Below, in pieces: positions 10,591 through 30,282 of a DNA stretch of 64,000 bases. Position numbers and translations under genes: made by a program. The stretch comes from Ignavibacteriaceae bacterium. GTDB lineage: Bacteria; Bacteroidota; Ignavibacteria; Ignavibacteriales; Ignavibacteriaceae. Numbering within the stretch: position 1 is the stretch's first letter; every line of letters begins with the position of its first letter. The DNA lies in assembly GCA_013360295.1 (NCBI GenBank), contig JABWCL010000033.1:1-64000 (forward strand), read 5' to 3'. A model generated the notes under the pieces. The model worked only from the letters and a program-made list of their open reading frames with translations. It did not search any database and was not told where the DNA came from.

Positions 10591-10606
10591 TGTTAAAAAA
10601 CTAAAA

Positions 10607-12967: not shown

Positions 12968-14395
12968 TTACCCTTCCCAAAACGCCTCCGCCCCAACGAC
13001 TGCTTCAAGTTCCCCCGCCGCCAGCATATCATCTACATATTCGATATTCCTCATTCCGATAAGAGTGGCTGAAACCTGCGGAAGTGAATTAAGCATCGCG
13101 ACTGCCTTCCGGCTGAGAGGCTGGCCGCTGTAGATACCTCCAGTCGCTTTGTCAATTTCTTTATGGTAAGCCTTTAGTTTTTTATTGTGCTGCCCCGCCA
13201 GTATACTCCGAAACGAATCCAGTAATATCTGCACTTCTACTCCGTAAGAATTCAGTTTTTTCCTTAATGAATCCGAATCATACTTTTTATCAAGTTCGCT
13301 GAGCACATAATTGATTTTAGGTATCAGGAACTGGCTGTTAATTTCATTGAAGTGTGTTACACCGTGGAATGATTTTTTATGCTCAGCCAGCAGTGACGCT
13401 GTTGAAAGGCAATCAACAAAAGCGCGTTTTTCACTCGGCTCTGCCTGCAGCGGAACGACATATTCCGATTTAAGTTCTATCTCTTTTGCCTTCACTGATT
13501 CAATCAGCAGGTCAACTTCTTCTTCAGTTCTGTCCTCCGTCACTTCAAATTCAGCCAGACGGAAAAGCCTGTCCTTTTTAATACCGTTAAGCGGACGGTT
13601 TATCAGAACGCCAAGATTATTTTCAGCCGCGAGTGTGAGGACGTTCTTGGTTCCTCCTGCCTGATTGAGATTAGCCCATCCTCCCCTCTCCATCAGATTC
13701 ATCGAAAACTGTATGACCGAAAAATTCTTTATGATTTCCGAATGATGAGCCAAACTTAAAATTCTTTCGAGGGAAGTAAAATCACCCTCATTAGCAGGAA
13801 CGCCAAAAGTATTTGAAGAAATACCATAACTCCTTATCCTGCCGCGGGCGACTTCAGCCTCCAGATACTCAAAGGCTTTTTGTATCCGGTAGTAATATTC
13901 GTTTAACTGTTCGCCTTCATCATCGTAAACGGAATAATTCAGAAAATATTCCGGATTATGAAGAAGATAAACATCAATGTAATCCATCTTCAGGCGTTCA
14001 AGCGAATGGCTGATCTGGTCATTGAGAAAATCAGGATGGATACAATGCCAGAGGTCGGGAGCGCATACAACTACTTCCGAGTAAGGATTCCCCGCTATTT
14101 CTCTGTCCCGCGCTGATTCAAGATTACCCCCTTGAAGGTACCCGCCTTTACTTACAATAACGAGATCCTCCCTTTTCACTTCACCCTCAACAACCATTTT
14201 ATTTACAACATTCCCGATCAGCATTTCACTGCCGCCGTCGGTATAGTTAGCTGAGGTATCAATTAAATTTACCCCGTTACTTAGAGCGCGGGTAAGAGCC
14301 TCTTCGTGGCTCCTCACCATATATGAAACCCGGTATGTGCCAAATCCGGTAACAGAAATTTTCCTGCCGGTCTTTCCCAGTGTTTTATAATTCAT
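12968..14395 (-). CDS. Aldo/keto reductase family oxidoreductase, extended
   Basis: A 475-aa cytoplasmic protein. The first 300 residues follow the aldo/keto reductase barrel: MNYKTLGKTGRKISVTGFG, DTSANYTDGGSE with Asp46 and Tyr51, VSKGG with Lys83, and CIHPDFLNDQISHSLERLKMDYIDVYLLHNPE. It should reduce or oxidise a carbonyl/alcohol with NADP(H). A large insertion and C-terminal region (about 285-430) makes it longer than the usual 300-330 residues. The end, LNSLPQVSATLIGMRNIEYVDDMLA, is the normal cofactor-binding tail of the family, so it is a genuine long form. Substrate unknown. A single gene, in no clear operon. Confidence 0.85.
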   Translation of the reverse strand: MNYKTLGKTGRKISVTGFGTYRVSYMVRSHEEALTRALSNGVNLIDTSANYTDGGSEMLIGNVVNKMVVEGEVKREDLVIVSKGGYLQGGNLESARDREIAGNPYSEVVVCAPDLWHCIHPDFLNDQISHSLERLKMDYIDVYLLHNPEYFLNYSVYDDEGEQLNEYYYRIQKAFEYLEAEVARGRIRSYGISSNTFGVPANEGDFTSLERILSLAHHSEIIKNFSVIQFSMNLMERGGWANLNQAGGTKNVLTLAAENNLGVLINRPLNGIKKDRLFRLAEFEVTEDRTEEEVDLLIESVKAKEIELKSEYVVPLQAEPSEKRAFVDCLSTASLLAEHKKSFHGVTHFNEINSQFLIPKINYVLSELDKKYDSDSLRKKLNSYGVEVQILLDSFRSILAGQHNKKLKAYHKEIDKATGGIYSGQPLSRKAVAMLNSLPQVSATLIGMRNIEYVDDMLAAGELEAVVGAEAFWEG

Positions 14396-14492
14396 TTATA
14401 ACTTTCATTTATATTAAACAGAAAGGATGTAATTATTCCGTGTGCCTAAGTTAAGGAACAGAGAGTGATGAAGAAGTGAAAAAATCAGAGTA

Positions 14493-15260
14493 TCAGATGG
14501 CTCTGATATATTCCAGGCGGATGCCCCTGTCGGCAGCGCCGGGCGACCATTTTTTATTACTTAAAATGTCGCGCAGATCCAGGCCAAGCGTGAATCCTAC
14601 GCCGGGAGTCCAGCGCACGCCAAAGTTCATATAGCCGTTCCCTTTTCCGTAGGCGGTTTTGGAATCATCATTCAGGGCGAAATCATATTCTGCCATTACG
14701 GAAACCTGCTTGCCGATTGTCTTCTCGACCCCGACAGTAAGATTTACAAAATTATCGCCGTCCGATTTTTCAAAAGAGTAGTTGAGGCTGCCGTGGACAG
14801 AAAGAAAACCCCAGAAGGCAAAATTCTTTGAGCCGGCTACGAACAATCCGGGTGACTTGATTGCATACCGGTCAGTGGAATCAAAGTATTCCCCTTTTCC
14901 CTGTGTATCAAATCCGAGTGTGAGGGATGGATAGAGAAGGGACTCCTGCATTATTCTGTACTTAATATTTGCCGCAGGGAGTTCATACCATCTCGGTGAC
15001 CCGCTCCCGATAATATTAGCGCCGCCGTAGGAGATGCCGAAACTTACGCTTTCAAAAACTCCGACTTCTATCCTGGCAATAAGAATGCCGTAGGGAAGCA
15101 CATCGCTCGAAACGCCGACAAAGCCCTTCTTCAGCACACCGGCTGTAGGCATATCAATAAGGTACCTGTGCTCATAATTAGCGTCTTCACCGGCTGTTCC
15201 CTGTGAAAATCCCGGGACAGTTAAAAGCAACAAAACGACAAAAAACAGAAGTTTTTTCAT
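14493..15260 (-). CDS. Putative outer-membrane beta-barrel protein
   Basis: About 255 aa from the ATG at 15258-15260 (residue 14 of the longer frame), chosen because AGG precedes it and it begins a clean signal peptide MKKLLFFVVLLLLTVPGFSQ. The mature part alternates short amphipathic strands with glycines (GVLKKGFVGVSSDVLP, ESVSFGISYGGANIIG, YMNFGVRWTPGVGFTLGLDLRD), typical of 10-14-strand barrels. No porin or transport family was recognised. The terminal residue is Ile rather than Phe. Function unknown. Confidence 0.75.
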   Translation of the reverse strand: MKKLLFFVVLLLLTVPGFSQGTAGEDANYEHRYLIDMPTAGVLKKGFVGVSSDVLPYGILIARIEVGVFESVSFGISYGGANIIGSGSPRWYELPAANIKYRIMQESLLYPSLTLGFDTQGKGEYFDSTDRYAIKSPGLFVAGSKNFAFWGFLSVHGSLNYSFEKSDGDNFVNLTVGVEKTIGKQVSVMAEYDFALNDDSKTAYGKGNGYMNFGVRWTPGVGFTLGLDLRDILSNKKWSPGAADRGIRLEYIRAI

Positions 15261-15352
15261 AGCGCCTCGAAAATGAAAATCAAACTTAACATTTAACAAA
15301 ATAATCTTAGACAGACCTCCATAATATACAACTTTAACTCAAATTATCTAAA

Positions 15353-15440
15353 CAATTAAGAATTAAGAGTTAAGAGTAAAAAATTAAAAATTAATCCCTT
15401 GTGGGACAGGAAATTAAACACTCCTCTCCGAGGTGTGGGT
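15353..15440. repeat. TTAA-type intergenic repeat with hairpins
   Basis: A run of AATTAAGAATTAAGAGTTAA-type words (15353-15393) is followed by AATCCCTTGTGGGA and by CTCCTCTCCGAGGTG, both of which can fold. The same modules are seen at 12565-12970 and 52916-53165. This marks the left edge of the accessory island. Confidence 0.55.
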
Positions 15441-15827
15441 CAATTTTCGGTGGGAATTAACACTGTTTTCGCCTTGCTCTCTGCTATCGATGCAATTACT
15501 AATCGAATAGAGAACAACGTCGAGCGCGTCAATGATAAGCGGATCGGCTTCGAGTGAGAGGTGCAAGTGCCCGCCGAGGGAGAGACGTCCTGGTAAGGAC
15601 CGGCGAAAAGGTCGAGGTCACGCTTTCGAGTAGCCATACTCAAGCACGATTTTGATTTTTGCGGTAAGATATAGAGGACTCTCTGAGAATCCGGACCTCA
15701 GTTCTGCAATATTCTCACTGCCATCTAATCCGAATGAGGAATTTTGTTTGAAGTAATGGTAAACGGGTACGTAACGGCCCTCTCGCCTGCAAAGCAGCTC
15801 AGGATCGCACCCGATGGTGAATGACAT
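15422..15827 (-). pseudogene. Decayed phage-type COOH-NH2 ligase (amidoligase) fragment
   Basis: A good ribosome binding site (AAGGAG) precedes an ATG at 15825-15827. The first 69 residues (TIGCDPELLCRREGRYVP, FGLDGSENIAELRSGFSESP) look like the N-terminus of the putative phage COOH-NH2 ligase type 2 family (PF14395). A TGA at 15618-15620 stops the frame. In the same frame beyond the stop come LSLGGHLHLSLEADPLIIDALD, where GGHLH matches the family's GGHxH motif. The body between is far too short for a whole amidoligase. I read it as a remnant with an internal deletion and a stop. The family call is from memory of its motifs. Confidence 0.55.
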
Positions 15828-15886
15828 AAGAACTCCTTAGTTTTATTTGTACTAAGTTTCCTATGCCAAATATTTAATCTATCCGC

Positions 15887-17053
15887 CTATGATAGGAGTT
15901 TATATATTTTTACAAAATACTCTCTTAAAGGATTCTGTATATCATAACCAAAAATTGATTTAAGCTCACCATCTGAACAAATAATCGGAGGGCATCCAAA
16001 TGAGTTCATAAAAGCAAAAAAATCTTTCTGATTCATTTGAGCATTATAAAAGTAGAGTTTATTCGAATTTACAGCATTCGAAATCGCAACCACTCGTTTA
16101 ATAAAGTCATGAATAAGAATTCTTTCTTGCGGCACTAAATACTTCGAATGCTCAAGCATAATATCGTTTAAATATTCCTGCATATTTGGAACATTATAAT
16201 TATCATTAAAGAAAACATCGGTAGTGCAAGATTGTAGGAACACTTCCATTTTTTTGGGGTTTAGTGAGCGTAACATATCAAACAAGTGCTTTAATGCATC
16301 TCCCGGGAGGCGACACAATAATGATATTTGACAAATTGCAATCGTCCAGGCTGATATGTCTTCAGTATCTGGCAATATTTTCTTTATCTCGTCATGGACA
16401 CATACATATATGACTTCACCAGTATTATTTCTTAGAGAATCAATAATTTCTGTATCCGGACGGTAAATTAGATTTTCCTGTCTTTGATTATTAAATTGAA
16501 GATAATTTCTCTGAATCTGTCTTGCCATATTTTCATATATTACTCTCTCACTTAGAGGAACATAGTATTTACTGCCTAAAAATTCTGCCAAGATATGCGG
16601 ATAAACATGTGACGTATTTCGAGATTTTGAAAATACTTTATCATAAACAAAAAGCTCCGGGTCATGACTGGTCACAGGAAATGGTTCTCCAGCAGTAATT
16701 ATTTCATACTCCTCCATCAGATCCTCATGATCTTTCTTAATATCAGAGTTAATCAGTATGTAGGGTGATGCATTCGTTATCAAATCCCTGATATTTAAAT
16801 TATCAATTTGGGAAGGTACATTCGGCCCATACCTTATAAAAATACTTGCACGCAAAAGTGAAGTAATTATATTCTTAAGAAATATTCTTCCAAAGGTTGA
16901 TGACAGCTGTTGGCAATAGTGTATATATTCATGAATTAAAACAGACTGAGCATAAACTTCATTTTCTACTTGATCTTTCGTAAATTCGGGTAAATAAATT
17001 GTCCATTCGAAGAGATCGAAGTGGTTATATGACTGAGATGAATTATTGAGCAT
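15887..17053 (-). CDS. Uncharacterised protein with HExxH zinc-protease motif
   Basis: A 388-aa protein of no recognised family. Near its N-terminus it has SVLIHEYIHYCQQ (His41, Glu42, His45), the HExxH signature of zinc metallopeptidases embedded in a hydrophobic helix. The rest is mixed alpha and beta with no signal peptide or membrane segment, so it is probably cytoplasmic. It is the last gene of the restriction/ADP-ribosylation operon, 52 bases after the YgjP-type gene. That gives two putative metallopeptidases in succession. It may take part in the defence system or be a passenger. The third zinc ligand was not identified. Confidence 0.65.
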   Translation of the reverse strand: MLNNSSQSYNHFDLFEWTIYLPEFTKDQVENEVYAQSVLIHEYIHYCQQLSSTFGRIFLKNIITSLLRASIFIRYGPNVPSQIDNLNIRDLITNASPYILINSDIKKDHEDLMEEYEIITAGEPFPVTSHDPELFVYDKVFSKSRNTSHVYPHILAEFLGSKYYVPLSERVIYENMARQIQRNYLQFNNQRQENLIYRPDTEIIDSLRNNTGEVIYVCVHDEIKKILPDTEDISAWTIAICQISLLCRLPGDALKHLFDMLRSLNPKKMEVFLQSCTTDVFFNDNYNVPNMQEYLNDIMLEHSKYLVPQERILIHDFIKRVVAISNAVNSNKLYFYNAQMNQKDFFAFMNSFGCPPIICSDGELKSIFGYDIQNPLREYFVKIYKLLS

Positions 17054-17105
17054 TATATGGAACCCTCTTATCTGGTAATTCTTTTGACTGTATTATTGAA
17101 TTTGT

Positions 17106-17780
17106 TCATAGCTCCTCTTCCAGCATCCCGCCATTTTCTTTTAGCCAGCGTTTTGCCTTATTGTATTCCGGCACTTGAACGCCTACTATATTCCAAAACT
17201 CAGCGGAATGGTTTAGCTCAATTAAATGAGCAAGTTCGTGTACTATTATATAGTTAATGACGTATATCGGAGCCCGGATTAGTTTCCAATTTAGCGTAAT
17301 GGTCTTGTTCGGTGAACAAGAACCCCAACTATATTTTAAGTTCCGAATCACAACTTTAACCGGATTGACACCCAAAGTGATTGAGTACAATTCAACTTTT
17401 TCCTGGAACAACTTTTTTGCCTGAGACAAATACCAATTATACAGCAATTCCTGAGCTTCACTTTTATTGAGAATCGATACAGTAAACTTGTTACTAAAAA
17501 TAACGCCTTCAATAATATCATTCGAGAGTATAAGTTTGTATTTGTGGCCAAGGTACATCAACGACTCACCCGAAACTGTTTCTTTCGATTTCGTATCTAA
17601 CGGGTATTTTGTTTTTGTCTTCAGTTTATTAAAAATCCATAGTTTTTTCTTCTCGACTACAGCATTTATATCGGAAGCAGGCATACCCTTTGGCGCAGTA
17701 AGATGAATCTTATTATTCCGGTCTATAGTGATATTCAGGGTTTTTCGATTTGAATACTTTATCGTGTAATCAATTTTCAT
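17106..17780 (-). CDS. YgjP-type M48-like metallopeptidase (DUF45)
   Basis: A 224-aa cytoplasmic protein matching the YgjP/DUF45 family: WGSCSPNKTITLNWKLIRAP followed by INYIIVHELAHLIELNHSAEFW, where HELAH plus the downstream His/Glu form the zinc site (about residues 178-192). Such genes very often sit beside type I restriction genes, though their substrate is unknown. The start codon overlaps the end of hsdR by 11 bases, which indicates translational coupling and a shared job or regulation. Confidence 0.9.
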   Translation of the reverse strand: MKIDYTIKYSNRKTLNITIDRNNKIHLTAPKGMPASDINAVVEKKKLWIFNKLKTKTKYPLDTKSKETVSGESLMYLGHKYKLILSNDIIEGVIFSNKFTVSILNKSEAQELLYNWYLSQAKKLFQEKVELYSITLGVNPVKVVIRNLKYSWGSCSPNKTITLNWKLIRAPIYVINYIIVHELAHLIELNHSAEFWNIVGVQVPEYNKAKRWLKENGGMLEEEL

Positions 17781-20700
17781 CTTTACCTGTCAGTATGTCT
17801 GTCCGTACTCTTGCAGTCTCCATAGTTCTGGATACCAGTTCGGAATACTTCGATTTCATATTCTGTATAATGATGAATCGCTCAGAGAGGAAAAGTGCCT
17901 GAAGCTCACCTTTGAGCTTATTTTGTGCTGGGATGCTATCCCAAAAACCAACCATTTTTAGCTCAAGACTAAGCATATTGGTTAAATTTTGTGTTAGATC
18001 AACCAAAATTGCAATACCATTTTCATCTAATGGATGTTCTCCGAACAATTCTTTTTTTAATATTCTGAAAAAAGGCATCTGCTTTTTCCGGCTCAGACCA
18101 TAAGTCTCTTCTTTTTCGCGATCTCTGATTTTCTTTCGTAGTTTTTCTAACTCTTCATAGATTTTTTGCCATTGCCCCTTAAATTCCTCAAGAATTTTTT
18201 GCAAAGCTTCTGCAAAGGAGGCAAACAGTTCGGGGTCATCCTCCATATTTATATCAATATAGCTTTTTATGGCATGTTCAATTTCGGCGGCTTTTGTTTT
18301 TGTCCTCGTTTTAGCTTCGACATTTTGATAAAATTCATCATCCATAATAGATATGGGAGTGATTTTCTGCTCAATCCCCCTGGACTTCAAATACTCATCC
18401 GCGATCATCCTTAATTTCTCCGGAATGCCTTTCATGCTCATTCGGCTATCGCAGAGGTGCTTGGAAGCGAGCAGATTAATTTCCAGGAATTTCTGATAAT
18501 CTGAGAAATACTCCAGAGCAGCAGGATGCGGAAGTACTTTATTGAATGCCTGAGTAAGCTTTTTGAATAGAAGGATATATTCGAAACGAATATCTTCGTC
18601 ATAGAATAAATCATAAAAGGCATCCGGGTCTCCAAAATCCGTGCAGCCATATTTTCTTAAAAATTCCCAAAGCTGTCTGTGAATATCAATGAGCTCATTA
18701 ATTTCATTTTGGTTATCGCCAAGCGCATCGAGAATCTCTTTCTGTTCGCGAAGAGAGTATGCATCCAAAGCTCTTTTTACATGATGCCCAATACCAACAT
18801 AATCAACAATAAAACCCGCATCTTTTCCATCTGGGCCAATTCTGTTAACCCTTGCAATTGCCTGAAGCAGGTTATGGTCGGTTATTATTCGATCAAGATA
18901 CATCACCTGTTCAACCGGGGCATCGAAACCGGTCAATAACATTTCATTGACAATGATAATCCCGATGTTTCCGTCCAAATCGCCTTCAGATTTACCAAAT
19001 TGTAACTTAAATCGTTTGATCTGAGTTTTGTGAGTATCCGAATTGGTGTAGCCATTAAATCTAGGCGGGTCATTATGAGCGTGTGAAATAATCACAGCCG
19101 TTTCTAACTTTTTCAAATCTGCAAGAAAGGAATCCTTTATATTATTAGCCTCATATTCTGATATTTTAGTATTTATGACTTTTCTAATAGATTCCTCGTA
19201 CCGGATTGCAGCCTCTCTGGTAACGGCAACTACCTGGGCTTTTAGTCTATTGGGGAACACGTATCCCAGAAAATGATTCACCAAATCTTCGGATTTTGCC
19301 ATGATTGTGGTTTCAGCTTCTAGATATGCTTCCCGTGTTCCAAAGCCAAGTATTTGTAAACGCTGCTGGATGTTATAATCGCTGAAAACATCGGCAAATT
19401 TTGTATCCATTCCTTTGGCATCATCTACTTCGGCATTGTGAGTTCTTCCTTCGTAAACAATCTTAAGAGTCACTCCATCTTCAATTGATTGCCGCATCGT
19501 GTATTTATCAATATAATCCCCAAAATGCTGCTCCGTTTGATCAATGGGCGTACCTGTGTAGGCAATATGAGTGGCGTTCGGGAGTCCTCTCCGCAAATTC
19601 GCACCTAACATTTTGTATTGTGTTCGATGTGCCTCATCAGTCATTACAAGTATATTTGGACTTGAATTCAGAACCGGAAATATCTCATTCAAATCCCTCT
19701 CCTGGAATTTGTGTATCATTCCCATAACTAAATCAGGGGACGGATTTTGCAGTAGCCTTTTGAGATTATCAATACTTGAGGCTGGATTAACAGTATAGCC
19801 AATACTCTGTGTCGCTTCTGACAACTGCTCTTCTAACTGCGTTCTATCAGTCACAAAAAGTACTTTCCATGAAAGCAATTCAACGTGCTTACGCATTTCA
19901 CGAACCATAAACACCATAGTGTAGGATTTTCCAGAGCCTTGTGTGTGCCAGATTATCCCTCCTCTTTCACGGGCGTTTTTCCCCACAAGTAATTTGTTTA
20001 TAGATTTCTTAACTGCACGGAACTGTTGGTATCTGCCAACAATCTTTATCGTTTTTCCTTTGTCATCCGTTGCAAATATTGTAAAGGTTCGTATTAAATC
20101 AAGCAAGTTTTGTTTCACAAGCATTCCTGCGATCAGTCGCTGCTGGTCATTTGGCGAAGTGCCTGTCTTAGTCTGGAGCTCTTCCAAAGTTTGTGGATAT
20201 GGGTCTGACCATCTATAGAAATATTTCTCAACTTGTGTTGTGATAGTGCCAAATTTGGCCTTCAGTTTATCGGTTACAATTAATAGCTGATTGTAATAAA
20301 AAAGAATCGGGTTGCCTTCAATCCCAACATTCCTTTGCTGAGAATACCGCATTAATTGATCTATAGCTTCGGCAATTGAATCTTTTACCTTCGGCGATTT
20401 GCACTCAATAACAACGAGAGGGATACCATTCACAAAGAGGATGATATCCGGGATTATATGATTTTCAGTACCTAAAACCCTCAATTTGAACTGACTTACG
20501 GCGAGATAGCTATTTAACTCAAGTTTGTCCGTTTCGAACTCAATGAACCGAACGGTGGGGTCACTTTCTCCGGTTTCGAGGTTATTAGAAACTGTTGTTC
20601 CTTTTAATAGAAACTCCAAAACTCTTTGATTGTTTTCAAGAAGGTTTTCCCTGTCAAAGGTTGTAAACTTGCGCACAACTTCATCAATCTGCCCCTCCGT

Positions 20701-20931
20701 TAAAAATGTATTTATCTTCTTCAGAGCATTTTTTAACTCAGGTAATATTATTACTTCATTGAAACTAGTTCTCCCCGAGCCAGAAGGTTCTGATTTGTTA
20801 TCAAGTCTTAAGACCTGCCACCCCTGATTTTCTAGTTGTTTTAGGAAGGGCTCCTCAACGTAATTTTTCTCATCAAGCTTTAGAGACTTTCCAATTTCGC
20901 CTTTATACCGGTTGTCATTTGATAGAATCAT
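17770..20931 (-). CDS. hsdR: Type I restriction enzyme R subunit
   Basis: A 1053-aa HsdR, the ATP-driven translocase and nuclease of a type I restriction enzyme. The nuclease core lies at about residues 160-180 (PDIILFVNG...VVIECKSP, a PD-(D/E)xK site). The helicase motor follows: Walker A QGSGKS near 332, DEAH near 430 (MTDEAHRTQ), then LLTGFDAP and QAIARVNRIGP in the second RecA domain. The C-terminal helical part binds the methyltransferase. All key motifs are intact, so it should be active. A 133-base gap separates it from hsdS; the following gene overlaps it. Confidence 0.95.
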   Translation of the reverse strand: MILSNDNRYKGEIGKSLKLDEKNYVEEPFLKQLENQGWQVLRLDNKSEPSGSGRTSFNEVIILPELKNALKKINTFLTEGQIDEVVRKFTTFDRENLLENNQRVLEFLLKGTTVSNNLETGESDPTVRFIEFETDKLELNSYLAVSQFKLRVLGTENHIIPDIILFVNGIPLVVIECKSPKVKDSIAEAIDQLMRYSQQRNVGIEGNPILFYYNQLLIVTDKLKAKFGTITTQVEKYFYRWSDPYPQTLEELQTKTGTSPNDQQRLIAGMLVKQNLLDLIRTFTIFATDDKGKTIKIVGRYQQFRAVKKSINKLLVGKNARERGGIIWHTQGSGKSYTMVFMVREMRKHVELLSWKVLFVTDRTQLEEQLSEATQSIGYTVNPASSIDNLKRLLQNPSPDLVMGMIHKFQERDLNEIFPVLNSSPNILVMTDEAHRTQYKMLGANLRRGLPNATHIAYTGTPIDQTEQHFGDYIDKYTMRQSIEDGVTLKIVYEGRTHNAEVDDAKGMDTKFADVFSDYNIQQRLQILGFGTREAYLEAETTIMAKSEDLVNHFLGYVFPNRLKAQVVAVTREAAIRYEESIRKVINTKISEYEANNIKDSFLADLKKLETAVIISHAHNDPPRFNGYTNSDTHKTQIKRFKLQFGKSEGDLDGNIGIIIVNEMLLTGFDAPVEQVMYLDRIITDHNLLQAIARVNRIGPDGKDAGFIVDYVGIGHHVKRALDAYSLREQKEILDALGDNQNEINELIDIHRQLWEFLRKYGCTDFGDPDAFYDLFYDEDIRFEYILLFKKLTQAFNKVLPHPAALEYFSDYQKFLEINLLASKHLCDSRMSMKGIPEKLRMIADEYLKSRGIEQKITPISIMDDEFYQNVEAKTRTKTKAAEIEHAIKSYIDINMEDDPELFASFAEALQKILEEFKGQWQKIYEELEKLRKKIRDREKEETYGLSRKKQMPFFRILKKELFGEHPLDENGIAILVDLTQNLTNMLSLELKMVGFWDSIPAQNKLKGELQALFLSERFIIIQNMKSKYSELVSRTMETARVRTDILTGKDEN

Positions 20932-21064
20932 TTATTATTCAAATAGGTTGTTAATATTTTATAGAATATCCTGTTTCACACTTCGATGATTATCATACTC
21001 CCTAGTACTATTTAGACACACTTTCTTCTGCCAAAGATCTCCAATCTCATAGATATTGCCTGGG

Positions 21065-22291
21065 TTATTCAACAAGCACCTCCGGTGAAACTCTTACTTT
21101 ACCTGTCAGCAAATCCTGCATTAAACCGTTTTTTAAGCGAGTGTACTTATTCAACCGTAATTTCTGTTCCTTGATCTGTTTACTCTGAAGAGATAATACC
21201 TCGATTATCCGCTCTTGTTCTTTTATTGATGGAAGCACTATGGCAGCATTTTTAATAGCTCCTTGGCTTAATCCGAAGCGAGTAGATCCTGTTGCCAATG
21301 CTCCAAAATATTTCTTGTAAAAACTCATTTGCAGCAGTTTATTTAGAAATTCACCGATTAGGAATGAGGGTTTGGGTCTTATCAATGCTAAATGGTAACC
21401 GCATACTAAATCATCAATATCAGCATTAACATAGGCAGGAATAGCAATATCATCGGGCGTTTCCGAGTCCTTTGTTATAATTACATCACCTTTTTTAAGG
21501 CTAAATTTATTAATCTCATCTCGTGTAGCTGAAGCAAGCATAAACGACAATTTCTCACTAATTTCTTCATTTGAGTAAACATCCATATAATTGCATAATT
21601 GCACGGGGATCTCTGATGCATGATATTTTTTGTCAACATTACTTATTACAACATTACTGCATTCATCTAATCGCTTAATGTTCCACTCTATCGGAATTCT
21701 CCCAACCGGGCTATCCTTAAACTTGTGCGTTTTTTCTGAGCGTATATTGCCATTTTCATCAATCCCCTTTGTAAGCAAGTCCTGCATAAGACCTGTTTTT
21801 AATCGTTGGTATTTGGAGATTAAATTATTAATACTAATTATATAATCATCAACATTACTCAGTATTCTTGCGATGTTACCTTGTTCATGAAGTTCAAATG
21901 GTGGAATCTCAAGCTCACCCAATAATTTTTTGTCCACGTGTGGAATTCCACTTCCGGAAGTTGCAGATTTAATACCCCCTTCCTGGTTTTTCAATAAATA
22001 GTATAAAAAAGTCTTATCTATTGGTTTTACAATTATCAACTTTACCATTGTAGAAGAAAGAACACCATATTTTGCATAAAATACCTCTCCCGCATTGGAA
22101 CCATCCCATAGCAATATTAAATCTCCATTTTCAACTATGATTGAATTTTGCGATACTCGACACATGGTTGCTGAATCGGCATTTCTTAAATACTCAGGTG
22201 TAAGATAGGGCGCTTCGAACGTCATACTATCATTGCTAACAATAGGAGGTTTCCCTTTTTTAAGCAAAATATATTTGTGTAGTTTTTCCAA
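21065..22291 (-). CDS. hsdS: Type I restriction enzyme specificity subunit
   Basis: A 408-aa HsdS with two target-recognition domains and two conserved spacer helices. The first half ends LISKYQRLKTGLMQDLLTKGI and the second ends LNKYTRLKNGLMQDLLTGKVRV, so the internal repeat typical of HsdS is visible. Each recognition domain should read half of a bipartite DNA site. The start is TTG at 22289-22291, with GAGA upstream, 10 bases after the stop of the HsdM fusion. The recognition sequence cannot be predicted by eye. Confidence 0.93.
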   Translation of the reverse strand: MEKLHKYILLKKGKPPIVSNDSMTFEAPYLTPEYLRNADSATMCRVSQNSIIVENGDLILLWDGSNAGEVFYAKYGVLSSTMVKLIIVKPIDKTFLYYLLKNQEGGIKSATSGSGIPHVDKKLLGELEIPPFELHEQGNIARILSNVDDYIISINNLISKYQRLKTGLMQDLLTKGIDENGNIRSEKTHKFKDSPVGRIPIEWNIKRLDECSNVVISNVDKKYHASEIPVQLCNYMDVYSNEEISEKLSFMLASATRDEINKFSLKKGDVIITKDSETPDDIAIPAYVNADIDDLVCGYHLALIRPKPSFLIGEFLNKLLQMSFYKKYFGALATGSTRFGLSQGAIKNAAIVLPSIKEQERIIEVLSLQSKQIKEQKLRLNKYTRLKNGLMQDLLTGKVRVSPEVLVE

Positions 22292-22301
22292 TTATCTCTT
22301 T

Positions 22302-25300
22302 CTATGTAATATATATTTTCCCCAATGCTTTTTGCATAGAAGCCTTAGTATTGTCAATACTCGCAAGAAGATCGGCTATACAAACTAAATACTTCTCGAA
22401 TATGTGAATAATTAAATCAAAAACTTTCTGTTTTTCAAGGTTGATATACTTTTCATGATAGTTCATAACAAGATCATTGTGTTTGCGTAGAATCAGCATT
22501 TTGCATTCATCAGTGCTAATAATGCCTCCAATCTGAACTAATTCCTTTTCCAGCTTGGATATTTTTGCTTTAAGACTCAAAATATCCTTCTCGATTTTTA
22601 TCCGTTTCTTGTTATCTTTTTCAGTAAGGGCAACTAATTCGGTTTCTGCAAGCGCAATCAGTTCTCTGTACTCCTGCTTCTTCTCTTCAACGCCGTATTT
22701 TTTAAGCATAACTTTAAGTTTTAATTCGGATTCCTTTTCCTGAATTGCTTTTTTGATGGCTTTAATACCCGACTCTTTCGCCTGAATCTCGCTCAATAGC
22801 TTCTTTAGTCCGTCAATTTCAACCAGGTCTGAACTTTCCTCTATGGAATTAGCTAATTGTTCCTTAATATGCTTTGGAGTTATTTCTTCCCCTTCATCCG
22901 GTTCATATTCGATTTGCTCCTGGGCTTTTTCGACAAGCTCATTCAACTCATTTTCAAGAGCCGAAAATCTACCCGTCAGATCCTCGATTTGACTTTTATC
23001 AGCCTGGAAGAATTCCTGAATGATGTATTCATCCGGTATTAAGCCGGGCATCCAGCCGTTTTGCATGATGGTCTTCAAATCGTATTTAATGTTATCCCAC
23101 CAGTTTACAAAAACGCCGGCGATCTGAAATTCATTCAGAATATTCAGTGGAAGCAATTTCTCCTTAAGAGTTCGTAAAAGTTCATCGCGAACCTTGGGCA
23201 GATTTTTACCGGAAGGGCGTACAAAAGCCTGCAATGATTCACCAACCCTATCTGAAGAAATTTCGTTAGTAGGCGATAAAGATGCAAAATCTATTTGCGC
23301 GAGAACCCACCAACTATCCAATGCCTTTTGAGCATCAACAAATACTTTAAGCAGTTTTTCATTATTTTCTAATATCTCCCTGATGGATTCTTTTGAGGTA
23401 ATATTATCCCTGAAGTCATAATAGTTCGCGTCTCTGTTCTTGAAGATTAATTCTGGAGTGAGTCCAAACTTCTCATAAAGAACCGCATTGTCGGCGATTT
23501 CTTTTTTCGGTACACCGCCAATAAGATGCGCCCTCACATCTTCAGGTTCGGGATCGGGGGTATTGTCAACATATCGCCGGATGTTCAGATTGAATTCGTT
23601 GGCTTCAATTTCGCTCAGCCCAACAGTTCTTGAGTATTTATTCACTTCGATTTTGTTTGTGAATATGTAATCAATCTTCTCGATATCTTCCGGCCTCAGG
23701 GAGTTTTGGTTTTTCCCTTCTGCAAATTCCGCATCTGCATTGATGAAGAAAATCTTTTCTCTCAGGTCATCCGGCTTATTCTTGTTGATGATGAGGATAC
23801 AGGCAGGAATACCCGTCCCATAGAATAATTTTGGCGGCAGACTAATAATTCCTTCTATGACATCACTCGTGATAAGTTTTACCCGAATATCTTTTTCTTT
23901 ACTGCCTCTGAAAAGTACTCCGTGAGGCATAACCACCGCTATTTTTCCCGATGACTTACAACTGGCTATCATGTGCTGAACGAACATGAGATCAGCTTTT
24001 TTACCTTTTTCAGCGCAAAACCCGTAAGCAAAGCGCTCTGTGTGTGTAAGATTGGTTTTTGAATAATTCTGCGAAAAGGGGGGATTTGCAAGCACCCGGT
24101 CAAAATGCCGTATTCTGCCATCGTTGTCAGTATTCATTGGCTCAGTAAGAACATCTCCAAAGTCAATTTTATACTTAGTGATGTTATGTAATATCATATT
24201 CATTTTGGCTATCGCAACAACCGTTGGGTCACTATCCTGGCCATGCAGATCTAAGTTGGTAGCATTGCCATTTTGTTCCTGAATATATTGAATGGACTGA
24301 ATCAGCATACCACCGGAACCCACGGTCGGATCATAAATGGTCATTCCTTCAGCGGGTTTAAGGAGCTGCACCATCAAACGTACAACCTGGGGCGGAGTAT
24401 AAAATTGTCCGCCTTTTTTTCCGGCGCTATCTGCAAAAAATTTAATCAAATACTCATAAGCTGCACCGAGGAGATCGGGGAACTCGAAGTTCTCGTTTAG
24501 CAGGGGTGGAAAATTTGTAAAGTGGTCAATCAAATCCTTCAGGTCTTTATCCTTCAGAATCTTTTTCCCGTCAACTTCTTTGTTAAACGATATCCTTCCC
24601 TTTAGAACTCCCGTCAAAGTATCGTTGGATTCTTCAAGTGCATATAGCGCTTTATCGAGCATCTCACCGATGTTCTCATGCAAATCCTTAATGCAAGGTT
24701 GTGGCTTCCCATTGTCGTCAATAAAACCTTCGAACCATCGGGCACGGGAGGGAACGAAAAAGGTATCACCGTATGTAGTGCGGTCATTAAATAATTTTGT
24801 AAGAAATTCCTCATCTTTAATGTGAGAGTATTTTGTTTTCTTTATTACTTCACGTTTCTCATCAAAAACATCAGATAAACGTTTTAGAAAGAGTAAACCA
24901 AAAATGTATTCTTTATATTCAGATGCATCCATTTTTCCCCATAAAATGTCGCAAGCCCTGAATAGGTGACTCTCTAACTGAGATAAGGTAATTTTGGTAT
25001 TTTTTGAATTACTCTTAGGTTTCGTGAGGCTGGTCGCTGTTACGGATGAGCTTGTAGAATTATTCACATTATCGAATAACGGATTTGTATACTGTCCAAT
25101 AGCCGAGCCCGGTTTAGTAACAGGAGCTTGCTGCGCAGCGGTGTTATCTTGTAATACAGGTTTTTTGTCAGTCACATCTTTTGAATTCTGCACTGTATCC
25201 TGTTGCTGCTTTGTAATATAGATAGTCTGCCCAACCTCAGTATGAATCTTCCAACAGGTGTGTTTCCATTTCTTTACAATTGATTTGTACTGGTACTTAT

Positions 25301-26537
25301 CAAGGATTGAAGAATTTCCAAAAGTTCCTAAATTAATCGAACCACCTTTATTGCTTTGTAACAGATTCTGAATAGTTTCTTCATTATTTTTCGCATTCCA
25401 TCGAGGAATATTTATTTCGCTTTGAATTTTGCGATCGAATTTAACATTCGCCAATCCTTGTGCCAATACTTTCACATACTCAGCATCCTGAAATTCCGTC
25501 CATTCCGGGTGTATCCATTGTTTACCCCAGAAACACCCAAACAATGCCCCGGTTAAAGACGCTAAAGTATCAGTGTCAGCTCCTCTCGCGAATGCCAGTT
25601 CCAGCATTCCTGTATGCTGATTATTCGTATAGTGCGAGAATACAAATACTGAAGCAAGAAGAGCGACAACGCCTGATCCATTCGTCGAGTACTCAAGCGC
25701 TCCAATTTTATTTAGAAAATTTGCTGTTGAAGCTAATGCACCTTCGTCTAAAGTTTTCTTACAAATAAGTAGGCCGTGTACGATCTCTTCAACCGTATTT
25801 TCCCAGAGTGCTTCATATTTAAACTTATAAAATATGTTTGCTGATCGCGTCCATTCATCATAAGTGTTCTGCCAAGGCCGGACCTTCGACCAAAGATTTT
25901 TAGAATCCAACAAATATGTGATTAGTTCGCCATACTCAAGCTTGTTGTTTTTCATCAGGAGATAACGTGCCGCTAATGAAAAAACCAGCGCACTGAGAAT
26001 GGCTCTAGGGTGTCCATGCGTTAAGACACTGTTTAACATCACCTGGTCAAGTATCTCATCCTCATTCAGTTCAGGAAGCAGAGCATGAGGCAAAACTCTC
26101 ATAACGGCGCCATTGGCTCCGGATTGAAAATAAAGTTCCAGTATTTTACTATTCTCTTTCCACGGGGCAATACCTTTTGCCCAGGAATCTGCGGCTTGTG
26201 AAATTGTTCTACCGGCGCCTCTTTCATATAATAACCAGAGGGGGAACTCTTGCCCGACGAGATAACGGCTCCAAAGGTTGCCTTTTAGCAAACTTCTGGC
26301 AGTAGCTAACATTAATTGCGAATCATCACTATATTCACCAGGTAAAAGTTCTTCAACAAAAGCATTAAATCGAGTACCTCCGCGGCGAGTCCATTTTTTA
26401 AAGGAGTATCTGGAATCATTTTTGGAAGATTTGTCAATTCTTTTATCCGGCCTTTCCTGTGGCCATCCTAAGGCGTCGCCAATAATAGAGCCTGCCAACG
26501 CGCCTTCAATTTTATTTATATCAATATTTGCGATCAT
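22302..26537 (-). CDS. ADP-ribosylglycohydrolase fused to type I DNA methyltransferase HsdM
   Basis: A single 1411-aa frame with two enzymes. Residues 1 to about 390 are an ADP-ribosylglycohydrolase (PF03747): [10 protein letters not shown] (Asp21), YSDDSQ (Asp71, Asp72), THGHPRA and [18 protein letters not shown] (Asp321, Asp323). These are the binuclear metal ligands of the family, all present. Residues about 445-515 are a Ser/Thr/Gln/Asn-rich linker. From about 517 follows Hsd[30 protein letters not shown] near 708, [10 protein letters not shown] near 735 (SAM site) and NPPF near 817, then a long coiled-coil C-terminus. HsdM normally stands alone, so the N-terminal domain is an addition. 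The start has AAGG upstream, overlapping the stop of the DarT-like gene 8 bases away. Together with that gene it suggests an antidote built into the methyltransferase. Confidence 0.9.
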
Positions 26538-26545
26538 TGTTTACC

Positions 26546-27247
26546 TTAACTAAAATCTACTATTTTTTCGCGTGGATATTTTCCTGCTTTAATCAAATTT
26601 ACCCAGCTGCCATCGAACATATGCGGAGCTATTATAAAGGAAATATGCTCCAATTTGATTTTGAGTATATCCAGTCTATTTTTTTCTTCGTTTGCTTGTT
26701 CCTCGGTAGTAACTGCGATTTGTAATATGTCTTGCTTAGGTATCACTTCTTTTACTAATACTTCAGCTTGCACATCCGTGGGGCAGGATGCTAATTGCAC
26801 ATTTGTGCGAGTAAACGTCATACCGGCGGATCCTGTAACCGAGGGTGCAAATATTTTAGCAAATGCTTGATAGCCCGATCCAATTGGTGTTGGGCGTGAT
26901 GCCGCATTACGATAGCTGTACTTATTTTCAACTTTCCATATTATTTCCGGTTTGATAATAAGTACAACCCAGTCCTTAAAGATTTTCTCCCTTGATGCTG
27001 CCTGTCTGAAAAAATAACTATTTGGAAATTCTACAGAGCAACAGATATGATTTGGCTGTCCGTCTAACCTCAGCGGGTCATTTTTATCAACGATATCCGG
27101 CCGCAGTGATTCAAGCGAATCAATTGAATATATTCCTTGCAAGTCTCCTAAAATATGAGGCAATTTTCTGGACTGTGTAAAATGACATAACCTCGATATT
27201 CTACGATTATTCACTTCTTGTTTAATCAATTCAATCTCTTTTGTCAT
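26546..27247 (-). CDS. DarT-like ADP-ribosyltransferase (PF14487/DUF4433 type)
   Basis: A 233-aa protein that fits the DarT fold family. It has RLCHFTQSRKLPHIL (residues 19-33; NAD-site region), DPLRLDGQPNHICCSVEFPN, DWVVLIIKPEIIW, YRNAAS (112-117) and TDVQAEVLVKEVIP with the likely catalytic Glu162. DarT enzymes add ADP-ribose to bases in single-stranded DNA and act as toxins or anti-phage effectors, normally restrained by a macrodomain (DarG) or NADAR partner. No macrodomain is present here; the next gene supplies an ADP-ribosylglycohydrolase domain instead. It is 1 base after the helicase gene and 8 bases before the fusion gene, so all are cotranslated. Target base is unknown. Confidence 0.82.
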   Translation of the reverse strand: MTKEIELIKQEVNNRRISRLCHFTQSRKLPHILGDLQGIYSIDSLESLRPDIVDKNDPLRLDGQPNHICCSVEFPNSYFFRQAASREKIFKDWVVLIIKPEIIWKVENKYSYRNAASRPTPIGSGYQAFAKIFAPSVTGSAGMTFTRTNVQLASCPTDVQAEVLVKEVIPKQDILQIAVTTEEQANEEKNRLDILKIKLEHISFIIAPHMFDGSWVNLIKAGKYPREKIVDFS

Positions 27248-27248
27248 T

Positions 27249-28649
27249 TTACATTTCCATTAAATTGTAAAATGCTGAACTGGCTGGTAGTAATGCCGTA
27301 ACAGTTTGAGTATAACTTATTATTAAACCCGTTTTGGCACGGGTAACACCAACATACAATAATCTAATATCCTCGACGGAAGTATCTTCTTCCCCAATCT
27401 CGCTAATTCTTTCCGGGCTTGGCCAAATGGAAGATGTACAGAAAGGCATTATTACTGTATCAAATTCCAAGCCTTTGGCAGAGTGATACGTTCCCACCAT
27501 TATTCCGCGTTCAGGTAAATATTCTCCTCGTTGATCATGTAGTTCCTCAATAGGTATCTGATTAGTCCGAGATTTGAGCTGTCCAATAATTTGCCTAACC
27601 AAGTCCCTCTTTCTTACCAGAATCGCGAGTTGCTGGTTTTGTGCCAGATTAATCGCAATATTCAGAACTTCAGAAAATTCATCTTTGTTTTTAAACTTTA
27701 CTAATGTCGGTTTTGCCGAGGCGGCTTTAACGATATTTGGCGCAACTATATCCGGTTCGTCGCTAAAATATTTTGATTTTGTAATTTCAAGAGCCAGATC
27801 TGCGATTTCTTTAGAATTACGATAATTCTCCTTGAACTCCCAAACCTTGGGTGGTCTTAAGCCAGCATCCTTCCAAGATATTCTTGAACCGTATATTTGC
27901 TGCGCAACATCACCAAAAAAGGTTAAGCTTCCCTGTTGGGGTAGTCCGGCAGAAATGCTCTTAATCATTGCGGGAGTAAAATCTTGTCCTTCGTCAATAA
28001 TGATATGTTTGTATCCAAGATCAGAATTATTTGATCTCAGTATATCTTCAACAAATATCGGGGCATCATCCCAATCCACATTAAAACCGGAATTTGCTCT
28101 CCGGTTTTTATAATCTTCATAAACATACCAAATATATTTTCTTTTTTCACGGTTTATTCTCGTCCCTTTTCTGCCAGTTCGCTGTGTGGTCTCGTATTCT
28201 TGCAAGGTTCTGATTCCGAAAGATTGTATCCATTTTATTTCTTCGAAAAAAACCATATAATCGCGTTTAAGCAAAGCATCTGAATGCATTTGTGCGACAG
28301 TATTCTTCGAAATTTCAATTAGCTGTTTCTTGCGATTTGAGTCTAAGTAGCCATTGGACATAAGATTTTTAGAGGAAAGAACACGATAGGCAACCTTATA
28401 ATAGCTATTTATTGAAAATGAAGCGGTACGGAACTCTTCAAATGAACTCATATACGAAATGAGCATTTTGTTGTATGTCAGAACCAGCGTCTTTTCATTT
28501 TCACGACAATGAGTATTTTGAAGATGGATGGCTCGAAGCATGGCCATACTGGTTTTTCCGCTCCCGGCAGTACCAAGGACTACGGTATGTCCTTTTTCCG
28601 GCAAATAAACGACCTCTTGTTGTCTTCCTTTTGGCGTTGGCAGTTTCAT
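27249..28649 (-). CDS. Short UvrD-like superfamily 1 helicase/ATPase
   Basis: A 466-aa protein with all SF1A motifs: Walker A LGTAGSGKTS (26-34), HIIIDEGQDFTP near 219, LTFFGDVAQQIYG, EFKENYRNS, GTYHSAKGLEFDTVIMPF and LLYVGVTRAK. It is shorter than housekeeping UvrD (about 700 residues), lacking most of the accessory domains, as is common in defence operons. It may unwind or scan DNA for the neighbouring effector; single-stranded DNA from its action would be a natural DarT substrate (inference). 17 bases after the 96-aa gene and 1 base before the DarT-like gene. Confidence 0.9.
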   Translation of the reverse strand: MKLPTPKGRQQEVVYLPEKGHTVVLGTAGSGKTSMAMLRAIHLQNTHCRENEKTLVLTYNKMLISYMSSFEEFRTASFSINSYYKVAYRVLSSKNLMSNGYLDSNRKKQLIEISKNTVAQMHSDALLKRDYMVFFEEIKWIQSFGIRTLQEYETTQRTGRKGTRINREKRKYIWYVYEDYKNRRANSGFNVDWDDAPIFVEDILRSNNSDLGYKHIIIDEGQDFTPAMIKSISAGLPQQGSLTFFGDVAQQIYGSRISWKDAGLRPPKVWEFKENYRNSKEIADLALEITKSKYFSDEPDIVAPNIVKAASAKPTLVKFKNKDEFSEVLNIAINLAQNQQLAILVRKRDLVRQIIGQLKSRTNQIPIEELHDQRGEYLPERGIMVGTYHSAKGLEFDTVIMPFCTSSIWPSPERISEIGEEDTSVEDIRLLYVGVTRAKTGLIISYTQTVTALLPASSAFYNLMEM

Positions 28650-28666
28650 AATAACCCTAAGTTTTA

Positions 28667-28957
28667 TTATTTAAAATCTTGATGCCACGGTAAATAACTG
28701 AAATCAAACAACCACTGTTCTTGTTCTGGTTTTAGGTGCTTGCACAGACGACCTATCACTTTTCCTTCATCGAAACTACGAAAATACTTTCGTTCTTCTG
28801 TTGTATTAAACTGCAGCAACGGCTGAGGCCATAGTTTATGGGAGTTGAAGTACTCTTCAACAGCCAGGCGGATCCTGGGATCCGCAATATCCAGAAAGCT
28901 GGAGATATACTTTGAGTATTTTCCTATAAACTGGTTATGAACATTAAATATATTCAT
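28667..28957 (-). CDS. Small protein resembling the N-terminus of DEAD/DEAH helicases
   Basis: A 96-aa protein, first gene of the restriction/ADP-ribosylation operon. KYISSFLDIADPRIRLAVEE followed by LWPQPLLQFN and a Phe/Gly-spaced end resembles, from memory, the N-terminal extension of large DEAD/DEAH helicases found in some accessory loci. No helicase motor follows: the frame ends and the UvrD-like gene begins 17 bases later. It is either a stand-alone adaptor or the leftover of a lost helicase. No catalytic residues seen. Confidence 0.6.
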   Translation of the reverse strand: MNIFNVHNQFIGKYSKYISSFLDIADPRIRLAVEEYFNSHKLWPQPLLQFNTTEERKYFRSFDEGKVIGRLCKHLKPEQEQWLFDFSYLPWHQDFK

Positions 28958-29363
28958 TCGATTCTTATTTTTAATCGGCCACTTTTTATTTATGGTATTG
29001 TATCTTGATTACGATTTAGAGTTCATTCAATTCCAATTTATTCAACTAATAGTAAGTGCAGTGAACCTTACCCTTTGTTCCCCGCAAAAATAAAATCCCT
29101 GAAAACTTCCTTAAAAATACAAAATATTATAATACATCAATCCCCTGCCGGGGACAATTAAATAACTGCGTGCTTGCCGGGTTAAAACTTATACGCAATA
29201 GAACGCCAACAAACGGTATAATGACTCTTGGGAAGCTGAACTTTTTGAATAGAGTGGATTTCATGTCTGATGTTTTTGCAAAAACAAGAAAATAACTGTA
29301 TTGTAACACATATATTTAGCTGAATTTATGTATTATAATACAAATTTTATGGATTTTTAGGCT
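28958..29363. other. Intergenic leader of the defence operon
   Basis: About 400 AT-rich bases between the divergent defence operon and the ATPase remnant. It must hold the operon promoter; no convincing consensus was recognised. ATTATAATAC words occur near 29127 and 29331. No gene seen. Confidence 0.4.
29329..29342. promoter_or_regulatory. Perfect 14-base palindrome TGTATTATAATACA
   Basis: A perfect dyad 22 bases upstream of the ATPase remnant. A related word (ATATTATAATACAT) lies at about 29125-29138, so a regulator could bind at both ends of the 200-base segment. AT-rich palindromes also arise by chance. Confidence 0.3.
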
Positions 29364-29570
29364 ATGATTACCAGAATAGTCGAAAACAGGATAAAATCTG
29401 ACCTCTTTATGGGGAAGACTATCATAGTGTATGGTGCCAGGCAGATCGGAAAAACTACTCCGGTAAGGAAGGTGGTATCTGATTTTGGCTACGCCGAATC
29501 CAAAACGGCGGTACAGGTAAAAACAGTCAGATATGTAATAATAACTCCTGAGGATACCCTTATTTCTTGA
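29364..29570 (+). pseudogene. Internally deleted DUF4143-type AAA ATPase
   Basis: The 68-aa frame starts like this ATPase family (MITRIVENRIKSDLF, then IVYGARQIGKTT, a Walker A loop). After about residue 45 it jumps to VRYVIITPEDTLIS, which resembles the extreme C-terminus of the same proteins (VITPENYLEFL-type). The usual 380 or so residues between are missing. I read it as a large in-frame deletion. The Walker A Thr-Pro after GKTT is also unusual. Confidence 0.6.
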
Positions 29571-29820
29571 GGCCTTTTTCTGCTTTTAGCCGGTGATAAC
29601 GTGCCTTTGCCCTTCGGATTGTAGCTGCTCTGTATTCCGGGTCTTCATGATACCGTCTTAGTGCTCTGTTCTTGGTTGCCTTTTTATAGGCTGGGTCCTT
29701 ATGGTACCTCTCTCTTGAAATTTTTTTAAGATTATTACGATATTCTTCATTTAATTGATAGCATCTATTTTTTGGTTTCTTAGTCTGAATTTTCTTTGAG
29801 TCTACGGTTTTGTTTTTCAT
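29560..29820 (-). CDS. Small basic protein with YHxDPEY repeats
   Basis: An 86-aa, very Lys/Arg-rich protein built from a repeated unit: RERYHKDPAYKKATK, LRRYHEDPEYRAATI and ARYHRLKAEKG. The Tyr-His-x-Asp-Pro-x-Tyr spacing is about 18 residues. Similar RYHEDPEY proteins are found in phages and mobile elements, where they may bind nucleic acid; function unknown. Its last codons overlap the end of the ATPase remnant on the other strand by 11 bases. There is no clear ribosome binding site. Confidence 0.55.
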   Translation of the reverse strand: MKNKTVDSKKIQTKKPKNRCYQLNEEYRNNLKKISRERYHKDPAYKKATKNRALRRYHEDPEYRAATIRRAKARYHRLKAEKGLKK

Positions 29821-29889
29821 AGGATTAAAATTTTAGTTCTCATTTTTCTCTCAAAGACACTCATTACGGTCGCATAAACATAGAAAATT

Positions 29890-30282
29890 CTACGCATAAT
29901 TCGGCAGTATATGCACCACAAACTTCGTCGGGAAGAGACTCTTTTCCGGTTTCACGATTATCTCCACTTCGCCGGTTTTTTGCTGAGAACGTATAACCAG
30001 TTTTCCGTTTTCGCGGTCTTCGAGAATTACGTCTATCAGTTCCTTCCCTCTCTCAAATGTGAAAACCGTTCTTACATTACGGAACGGGACTTTGAATCCC
30101 AGCCCGTTTACGGGTACCACTTCAATTGTAAATGTGGAGGCGCCGTCGGCGTATATCTTCGTATCTGTTGTTTTATAATCTACCTCGTAAATATTAAACA
30201 CATAATTATAAACGAGGAACGCGAGGACGGGGATCAGTATTATCAGTATGTACAACAATGTTTTACCGTGTGCTTCCTTCAA
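29890..30282 (-). CDS. Membrane-anchored protein with Ig-like domain
   Basis: A 130-aa protein with one N-terminal membrane anchor (residues about 9-30, LLYILIILIPVLAFLVYNYVF) and an exported beta domain (YADGASTFTIEVVPVNGLG...VRTVFTFERG...GEVEIIVKP) like bacterial Ig folds. It overlaps the ATP-grasp gene by 4 bases (ATGA), so the two are coupled. Unknown role. Confidence 0.7.
   Translation of the reverse strand: MKEAHGKTLLYILIILIPVLAFLVYNYVFNIYEVDYKTTDTKIYADGASTFTIEVVPVNGLGFKVPFRNVRTVFTFERGKELIDVILEDRENGKLVIRSQQKTGEVEIIVKPEKSLFPTKFVVHILPNYA

Follow-up and report, generated by a model that had tools for sequence, protein, structure and literature searches.

The window analysed here (the whole stretch of 64,000 nucleotides from an Ignavibacteriaceae bacterium, contig JABWCL010000033.1) carries on its minus strand a putative seven-gene operon in which a type I restriction-modification (R-M) system stands together with a DarT-like DNA ADP-ribosyltransferase, and which closes with two genes for HExxH proteins. 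Its features, with the genes given in operon order, are the following:

15207..29892, no strand assigned: inserted island containing the operon; in a genome from the same family (L081), 273 bases separate the flanking genes
27249..28649, minus strand: UvrD-like helicase, 466 aa (UvrD_C, 7.2e-22), first large gene of the operon, 1 base from darT
26546..27247, minus strand: DarT-like DNA ADP-ribosyltransferase, 233 aa (PF14487, 5.9e-20)
22302..26537, minus strand: ADP-ribosylglycohydrolase domain (residues 12-344) fused to HsdM (residues 521-993 and on), 1411 aa (PF03747, 5.8e-41; HsdM_N, 3.1e-29; N6_Mtase, 1.2e-103)
21065..22291, minus strand: HsdS specificity subunit, 408 aa (Methylase_S, 8e-27)
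17770..20931, minus strand: HsdR, type I restriction subunit, 1053 aa (HSDR_N, 9.6e-38; SWI2_SNF2, 2e-69)
17106..17780, minus strand: YgjP-like (SprT-type) metallopeptidase, 224 aa (PF01863, 1.6e-54), with HELAH at 17226-17240
15887..17053, minus strand: ORF for a gluzincin-like protein of 388 aa, assigned to an unnamed family by profile and hhalign
16919..16933, minus strand: HEYIH of the 388-aa protein (translation; residues 41-45), with predicted ligands His41 and His45 and predicted catalytic Glu42, followed by invariant Gln48 (18/18 rows of alignment A3)
16523..16534, minus strand: ENMA of the 388-aa protein (residues 174-177), the predicted 'glutamate helix' ExxA with Glu174 as third ligand; E174, M176 and A177 are invariant in A3, the motif aligns with ESMA in hhalign and falls in helix 169-187 of the window model

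The intergenic gaps computed from the ORF coordinates are, in operon order, 1, 8, 10, 133, -11 and 52 bases. YgjP shares 11 bases with the 3' end of hsdR, and 52 bases past YgjP the 388-aa gene begins, so that the coordinates, reading frames and spacing which the first-pass annotation had described for a HELAH protein overlapping hsdR and a HEYIH protein right after it are all confirmed. A purine-rich AGAGGG lies just 5' of the start codon of the 388-aa gene, and neither of the two terminator-like sites listed for positions 15400-18200 falls at the YgjP/388-aa junction; we infer co-transcription of the operon with the 388-aa gene included. The glycohydrolase domain at the HsdM N-terminus sits right behind the DarT gene (22302-26537, minus strand). 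Immediately upstream of the operon there is a 96-aa ORF (28667-28957, minus strand), a candidate small regulator, and at the island edge (15618-15827, minus strand) a 69-aa piece has a sub-cut-off Pfam resemblance to the beginning of a COOH-NH2 ligase and is perhaps a remnant.

The genes flanking the operon are 273 bases apart in another genome of the family (G545) as against 14.7 kb in the window, and the operon can therefore be regarded as a 14.7-kb insertion. Among its seven genes, that of the 388-aa protein is the lowest in both G+C (0.327) and GC3 (0.278), and it was not found in G631, the one genome of the same genus that was searched. Of the type I systems seen, the most closely related lies on a Runella plasmid (L063) and comprises an HsdM without the glycohydrolase domain, HsdS, HsdR and, as its last gene, YgjP, with neither DarT nor the 388-aa gene. 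It follows that the 388-aa gene is dispensable for R-M of the Runella type, and that DarT, the fused glycohydrolase and the 388-aa gene are add-ons to a standard hsdMSR-ygjP unit. Its base composition, its last place in the operon, its absence from the sister Runella system and from the genome G631, and the highly varied neighbours of its family elsewhere would all fit an independent defence or island gene that travels at the 3' edge of the island with no working tie to R-M, DarT or YgjP. We hold this to be unlikely, since the gene shares its strand with the operon, is separated from YgjP by those 52 bases and has the purine-rich stretch before its start codon, and since its relatives in other genomes are tightly packed with defence genes, twice inside or right behind type I genes.

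The penultimate protein needs little comment. It scores 185.5 bits against PF01863 (curated cut-off 26; E 1.6e-54), and its HELAH, at residues 181-185, is followed by the third histidine of the HExxHxxxxxH arrangement (HELAHLIELNH). YgjP adjoined hsdR in all six plasmid loci opened, lying immediately downstream of it in the same orientation in five of them and tail to tail with it in the sixth, these six having been picked by hand and not at random from 562 plasmid records matched by tblastn. In the bacterium's own genome three of the four PF01863 matches come after an hsdR, one of the matches being a 105-aa short form. The earlier statement that YgjP is a known companion of type I genes thus holds, and the protein of the window is, judged by its sequence and neighbours, an ordinary companion of hsdR. 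It was also right that the operon ends with two different HExxH proteins, which are mutually unrelated, the 388-aa protein having no PF01863 match at E <= 0.1. The further suggestion that a second HExxH protein beside YgjP is unusual is true in a mild sense only, with no clear excess: HExxH occurs in 4/60 ORFs adjoining relatives of the 388-aa protein versus 9/281 background ORFs, and the idea of a special pairing was dropped on these counts.

An HExxH motif by itself is weak evidence. Among 200,000 composition shuffles of the 388-aa protein it appeared in 1.9%, and HExxHxx[QEND] in 0.46%. The protein gave no match above cut-off in Pfam, PADLOC (0 families at E <= 0.1), NCBIfam, PHROGs or PDB sequences. 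Three identities were considered and discarded: a second YgjP/SprT protein (no Pfam match), AbiEi (E 0.097 across 24 residues, below cut-off) and a phage protein (no PHROG). With its sequence as query, 72,556 plasmid records and 50,697 phage records gave no match, and 395 genomes of the phylum gave the protein itself plus a 37-residue match in G292 (E 0.0086) that was taken for chance. A motif-pattern search started from it returned 27 stretches in genome_contigs and 7 in viral_contigs, none of them confirmed. The literature yielded no name for its family, which offers no name to search by.

Access to the family came solely through a degenerate DNA pattern of the motif region. This pattern was drafted from a general impression of such proteins, and it is its matches, not the impression, that we take as evidence. 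It retrieved six viral contigs and two further genomes among the 395 of the phylum, its reversed control retrieving none, and a narrower form, run on a collection covering 84,980 species, matched 16 contigs; the full-length proteins behind these matches align end to end. Two pattern or profile matches were dropped, a 133-aa phage ORF matched by the pattern only (L008) and L062; partial or broken ORFs (L003, L006, L013, L015, L016, L026) were left out of the alignments, L009 and L010 out of the structure alignments, and L020 and L021, being sister loci, were not counted as independent. On one viral contig (L006/L040) the relative is split across three ORFs and looks broken.

Membership of the 388-aa protein was assessed with profiles built without it. 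A first profile of 17 relatives gave 34.8 bits, a score reached by 2/2000 shuffles that kept the motif, so that most of it was carried by the motif. A profile of 23 relatives aligned to the protein as one domain (residues 28-358, 32.4 bits); for residues 58-388, past the motif, it still gave 22.1 bits, above all 5000 shuffles (best 11.5), and for residues 185-388 it gave 20.9 bits (best shuffle 7.9). In hhalign the window sequence matched the same 23-relative family over residues 35-363 with a probability of 97.8 (E 1.1e-12). Identity to single relatives is 13-19%. By profile and alignment, the 388-aa protein is a divergent member of this unnamed family, and such membership raises its motif above chance.

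The family is recognised by HE[YW]xH[YF]xQ, by a glutamate in E-x-x-A about 110-130 residues further on, and by C-x3-L-x(4)-P. Residues H41, E42, H45, Q48, E174, M176, A177, Y216, C241, P250 and P355 (window numbering) are invariant in 18/18 aligned rows, the invariance of HExxH being partly built in because most of these rows were found by the motif pattern. Among the 11 relatives found by tblastn or HMM with no motif filter, 10 retain HExxH, the remaining one (L062, in G577) having been judged by eye a CapA-like chance match and not a member; homologues lacking the motif, named beforehand as a possible refutation, did not turn up. E-x-M-A is present in 4/10 of the unfiltered relatives and is replaced elsewhere by EGQA (four rows of A5), EIQA (L047) and EFFC (L058); as these share one column, the glutamate itself is kept in divergent members. 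Another divergent member (L037) has ESAE at this place. A sister subfamily with HExxHWWQH matches in hhalign with a probability of 97.0 (E 1.1e-10, 200 columns), and with a probability of 95.7 across the motif region only when alignment A4 is used. The gluzincin signature has been described as HExxH plus (E,H)xx(A,F,T,S,G) on two helices (in the part of PMC7213743 consulted), and judged by sequence, by model and by this description the two helix-borne motifs of the family constitute such a signature, EFFC of L058 departing from it at the last position. The search for a third zinc ligand, which the first-pass annotation had proposed, points to Glu174, invariant in A3, as the likely and so far predicted candidate.

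The predicted structures agree with this placement. The model of the 388-aa protein is poor (pLDDT 54.6, pTM 0.58), with the motif helices (26-51 and 169-187) among its better parts, and that of one relative (L025) is confident (pLDDT 87.7, pTM 0.89), with HExxH within helix 38-56 and Glu163 within helix 158-173. Foldseek comparison of the L025 model with PDB and BFVD returned nothing at E <= 0.001 (best PDB E 1.3), and a VIA search gave a best Z of 3.7 (rmsd 4.8 over 59 residues). The fold search with the window model found unrelated helical proteins only (best Z 4.6, rmsd 6.5 over 168), and an 18-row profile found no credible match among PDB sequences (best E 0.06, a designed bundle). A missing PDB match does not prove a new fold for the predicted L025 structure. 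It can nonetheless be asked whether HExxH and the glutamate hold a metal for some other reaction, or whether the protein works by binding alone, in view of the confident L025 model, in which no peptidase fold was recognised, and of the existence of HExxH enzymes of other kinds, such as the alpha-ketoglutarate-dependent HEXXH enzymes of RiPP pathways (as given in the consulted part of PMC12636437). ArdC, an HExxH protein countering HsdRMS, likewise works without its protease activity according to the sections consulted of PMC7213743, and cautions against equating the motif with a function. We nevertheless regard this alternative as improbable, because both gluzincin motifs are conserved with their helices placed as expected and because neither nine relatives nor the window protein scored above cut-off with an NCBIfam model for some other class of HExxH enzyme. 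Metal binding and peptidase activity of the 388-aa protein are what we infer.

Relatives lie in or beside loci of type I R-M (two further genomes), of Type ISP and Wadjet, both counted here as defence systems, and of AIPR and PHP-AAA. In a genome of the same class (L046), an hsdM (holding an N), hsdS and hsdR are followed 32 bases on by a relative, then by AIPR and a PHP-AAA-like protein whose PHP part was assigned by eye. In L059 (G084) the order is hsdM, GmrSD, relative, hsdS, four further genes and hsdR. The L058 relative lies 155 bases past a Type ISP enzyme and precedes a kinase, and HsdR-like, helicase and Mrr genes surround that of L042. Elsewhere the relative stands beside Wadjet JetA (DUF3375) and SMC-like genes (L049), 23 bases after a PHP-AAA protein (L019) or 23 bases from a PHP-AAA or AAA/SMC-like gene (L023). 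On plasmids it directly follows an ImmA/IrrE peptidase, with AbiE genes nearby (Spirosoma), lies 14 bases past the AAA ATPase in the series SNF2, AAA, relative, DNA methyltransferase, helicase (Hymenobacter, L044), or is found near HipA, ThiF and Mov34 (Aliarcobacter, L045). L034 and L036 are prophage-like regions, and the stretches read of L047, L048, L050, L060 (one AAA gene), L061, L017, L018 and L025 had no clear defence neighbour.

Three of these loci deserve a further remark. The stretch 4123-16731 of L046 joins type I genes, relative, AIPR and a PHP-AAA/SMC-like protein, and the L019 relative also comes after PHP-AAA. In L059 (1581-14012) a GmrSD (type IV-like) gene and the HExxHWWQH protein are inserted between hsdM and hsdS. 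In L049 a second HExxH protein, of 330 aa with YHEVGH and no Pfam match (11249-12241), begins 11 bases after the relative, divergent from the Wadjet-like genes.

An hsdR would stand within 10 kb of a randomly chosen gene 1.34% of the time (29 HSDR_N matches, 11 genomes, 43.2 Mb), and among the non-window genomic loci (L046-L050, L058-L061) this was so in 2/9. The probability of two or more such loci, 0.0048 computed for n=8 and about 0.006 for n=9 by hand arithmetic, refers to loci retrieved with several profiles, the window protein being part of some of these, and places hsdR proximity modestly above chance. The family does not specifically track hsdR loci, a point that the first-pass annotation had wished to see checked, because its partners are many and different. 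Judged by sequence and gene context, it is a real, conserved, unnamed and gluzincin-like family with repeated defence neighbours, and these suggest that the 388-aa protein may help control or carry out defence.

Carrying out defence would imply an effector, a peptidase activated by infection that cleaves a host or phage protein and so stops phage growth. The Lit peptidase of E. coli stops phage growth by infection-triggered cleavage of this sort. Relatives that do without an R-M system, beside Wadjet genes (L049), in prophage-like regions (L034, L036), near HipA and ThiF/Mov34 (L045) or next to kinases, ADP-ribosylglycohydrolase and DarT (L083), would be consistent with such a role. We judge it somewhat unlikely for the window protein, in which neither a sensor domain nor a fused partner was seen and whose place behind a complete R-M operon suits an accessory better than an autonomous effector.

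The seven operon proteins have Pfam matches to an ADP-ribosylglycohydrolase domain but to no macrodomain of the DarG antitoxin type, and as the usual DarG macrodomain is missing, the HsdM-fused domain may, on its sequence, be the DarT antidote. DarT together with ADP-ribosylglycohydrolase is thus a feature of the window operon that also recurs in Prevotella, where L083 holds, in order, a helicase, a 312-aa gene, ADP-ribosylglycohydrolase (6.8e-30), two kinases, the relative, 4 bases before a further kinase, DUF6939 and DarT (1.6e-34). Of the three protein kinases of this locus (5528-15827), at least one has LRR repeats. In its sister L020, also Prevotella, the glycohydrolase (4e-29) is two genes from the relative and DarT about 7 kb off on the same contig. 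DarT is near the relative in 2/13 non-window loci (L083 and L020), the chance of finding it within 10 kb being 0.3% per locus (hand arithmetic; 7 DarT matches, 14 genomes, 46.8 Mb); as these two are sisters, they amount to one event plus the index case. The association is suggestive, a lead and no proof. DarTG has been described as often inserted in type I operons (consulted part of PMC8883491). It is tempting to speculate that the family marks a recurring ADP-ribosylation defence module of DarT, ADP-ribosylglycohydrolase and peptidase, in which cutting of toxin or antidote by the peptidase would confine the release of DNA ADP-ribosylation to times of need; in the window, the antidote would have been transferred to HsdM and the toxin thereby coupled to the methylation state that the type I enzyme senses. 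We consider this distinctly improbable.

The closest system described is the phage-protective RRDM island of enteropathogenic E. coli, made up of RptR, a type I R-M system, DarTG2 and an M48 metallopeptidase (consulted sections of PMC12255303). Going by those sections, both islands unite DarT with type I R-M and place a predicted metallopeptidase gene after hsdR. They differ in gene order, DarTG lying between hsdS and hsdR in RRDM; in the antidote, a macrodomain protein (DarG) in RRDM versus a glycohydrolase domain fused to HsdM in the window; and in the number of metallopeptidases, one in RRDM and two in the window operon. RptR, whose repressor gene heads the RRDM operon, was not recognised in the window, where a candidate small regulator, the 96-aa ORF, lies just upstream of the operon. 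We would guess that the M48 protein is YgjP-like; the sections consulted of the same report give no function for it. YgjP/SprT-type proteins (PF01863) are HExxH proteins at the ends of hsd operons, and the window YgjP is a plain member. The 388-aa protein bears no detectable relation to them, having HExxHxxQ with a distant ExxA in place of HExxHx5H and being, to judge by its relative's model, mostly helical. With ArdC and other gluzincins (as described in the consulted part of PMC7213743) it shares the two-helix signature given above; it differs from them in having no sequence similarity that we could find, no recognised ssDNA-binding domain, 128 residues between its two motifs and, in its relative, a fold without PDB match.

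A cell has to restrain its type I restriction enzymes from attacking its own chromosome, and to our knowledge the ClpXP case is the main one in which the means are understood. We tentatively favour, as a possible rather than a probable reading, that the 388-aa protein is a conditional regulatory peptidase cutting one of its operon partners. Operon order, family membership, conservation of the two motifs and defence-type neighbours can be read from the sequences themselves. The protein would be a divergent, probably cytoplasmic, zinc-dependent gluzincin-like peptidase of a defence-associated family, its metal held by His41, His45 and Glu174 and its water activated by Glu42, and its gene would have joined, at the 3' end, a type I operon already ending in YgjP. 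One partner, either the HsdR motor, DarT or the ADP-ribosylglycohydrolase-HsdM antidote, would be cut, and this cleavage would release or limit defence following infection or DNA damage; which substrate it is, and when it is cut, is a guess on our part. The regulatory reading is favoured by family membership, by the gluzincin signature in the L025 model and in the better parts of the window model, by relatives packed against different defence enzymes, and by precedents for proteolysis of a defence component, namely ClpXP, which degrades HsdR in restriction alleviation (consulted part of PMC3874165), and CapP, which acts on CapH in CBASS (consulted part of PMC12255303). These proteases resemble the 388-aa protein in the proposed mode of action, the proteins themselves being unrelated. 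The same reading is weakened by the poor model of the window protein itself, by the Runella system (L063), which does without the gene, and by ArdC, whose protease activity is not needed; moreover, partners so varied make no single conserved partner-substrate evident.

A peptidase-like family without an entry in the libraries searched that is found repeatedly at type I, Type ISP and other defence loci is a candidate for a dedicated protease. Its signature, HE[YW]xH[YF]xQ ... ExMA, lets annotators recognise proteins now called hypothetical. Should the target of the 388-aa protein be the DarT antidote, defence by DNA ADP-ribosylation would gain a proteolytic step.
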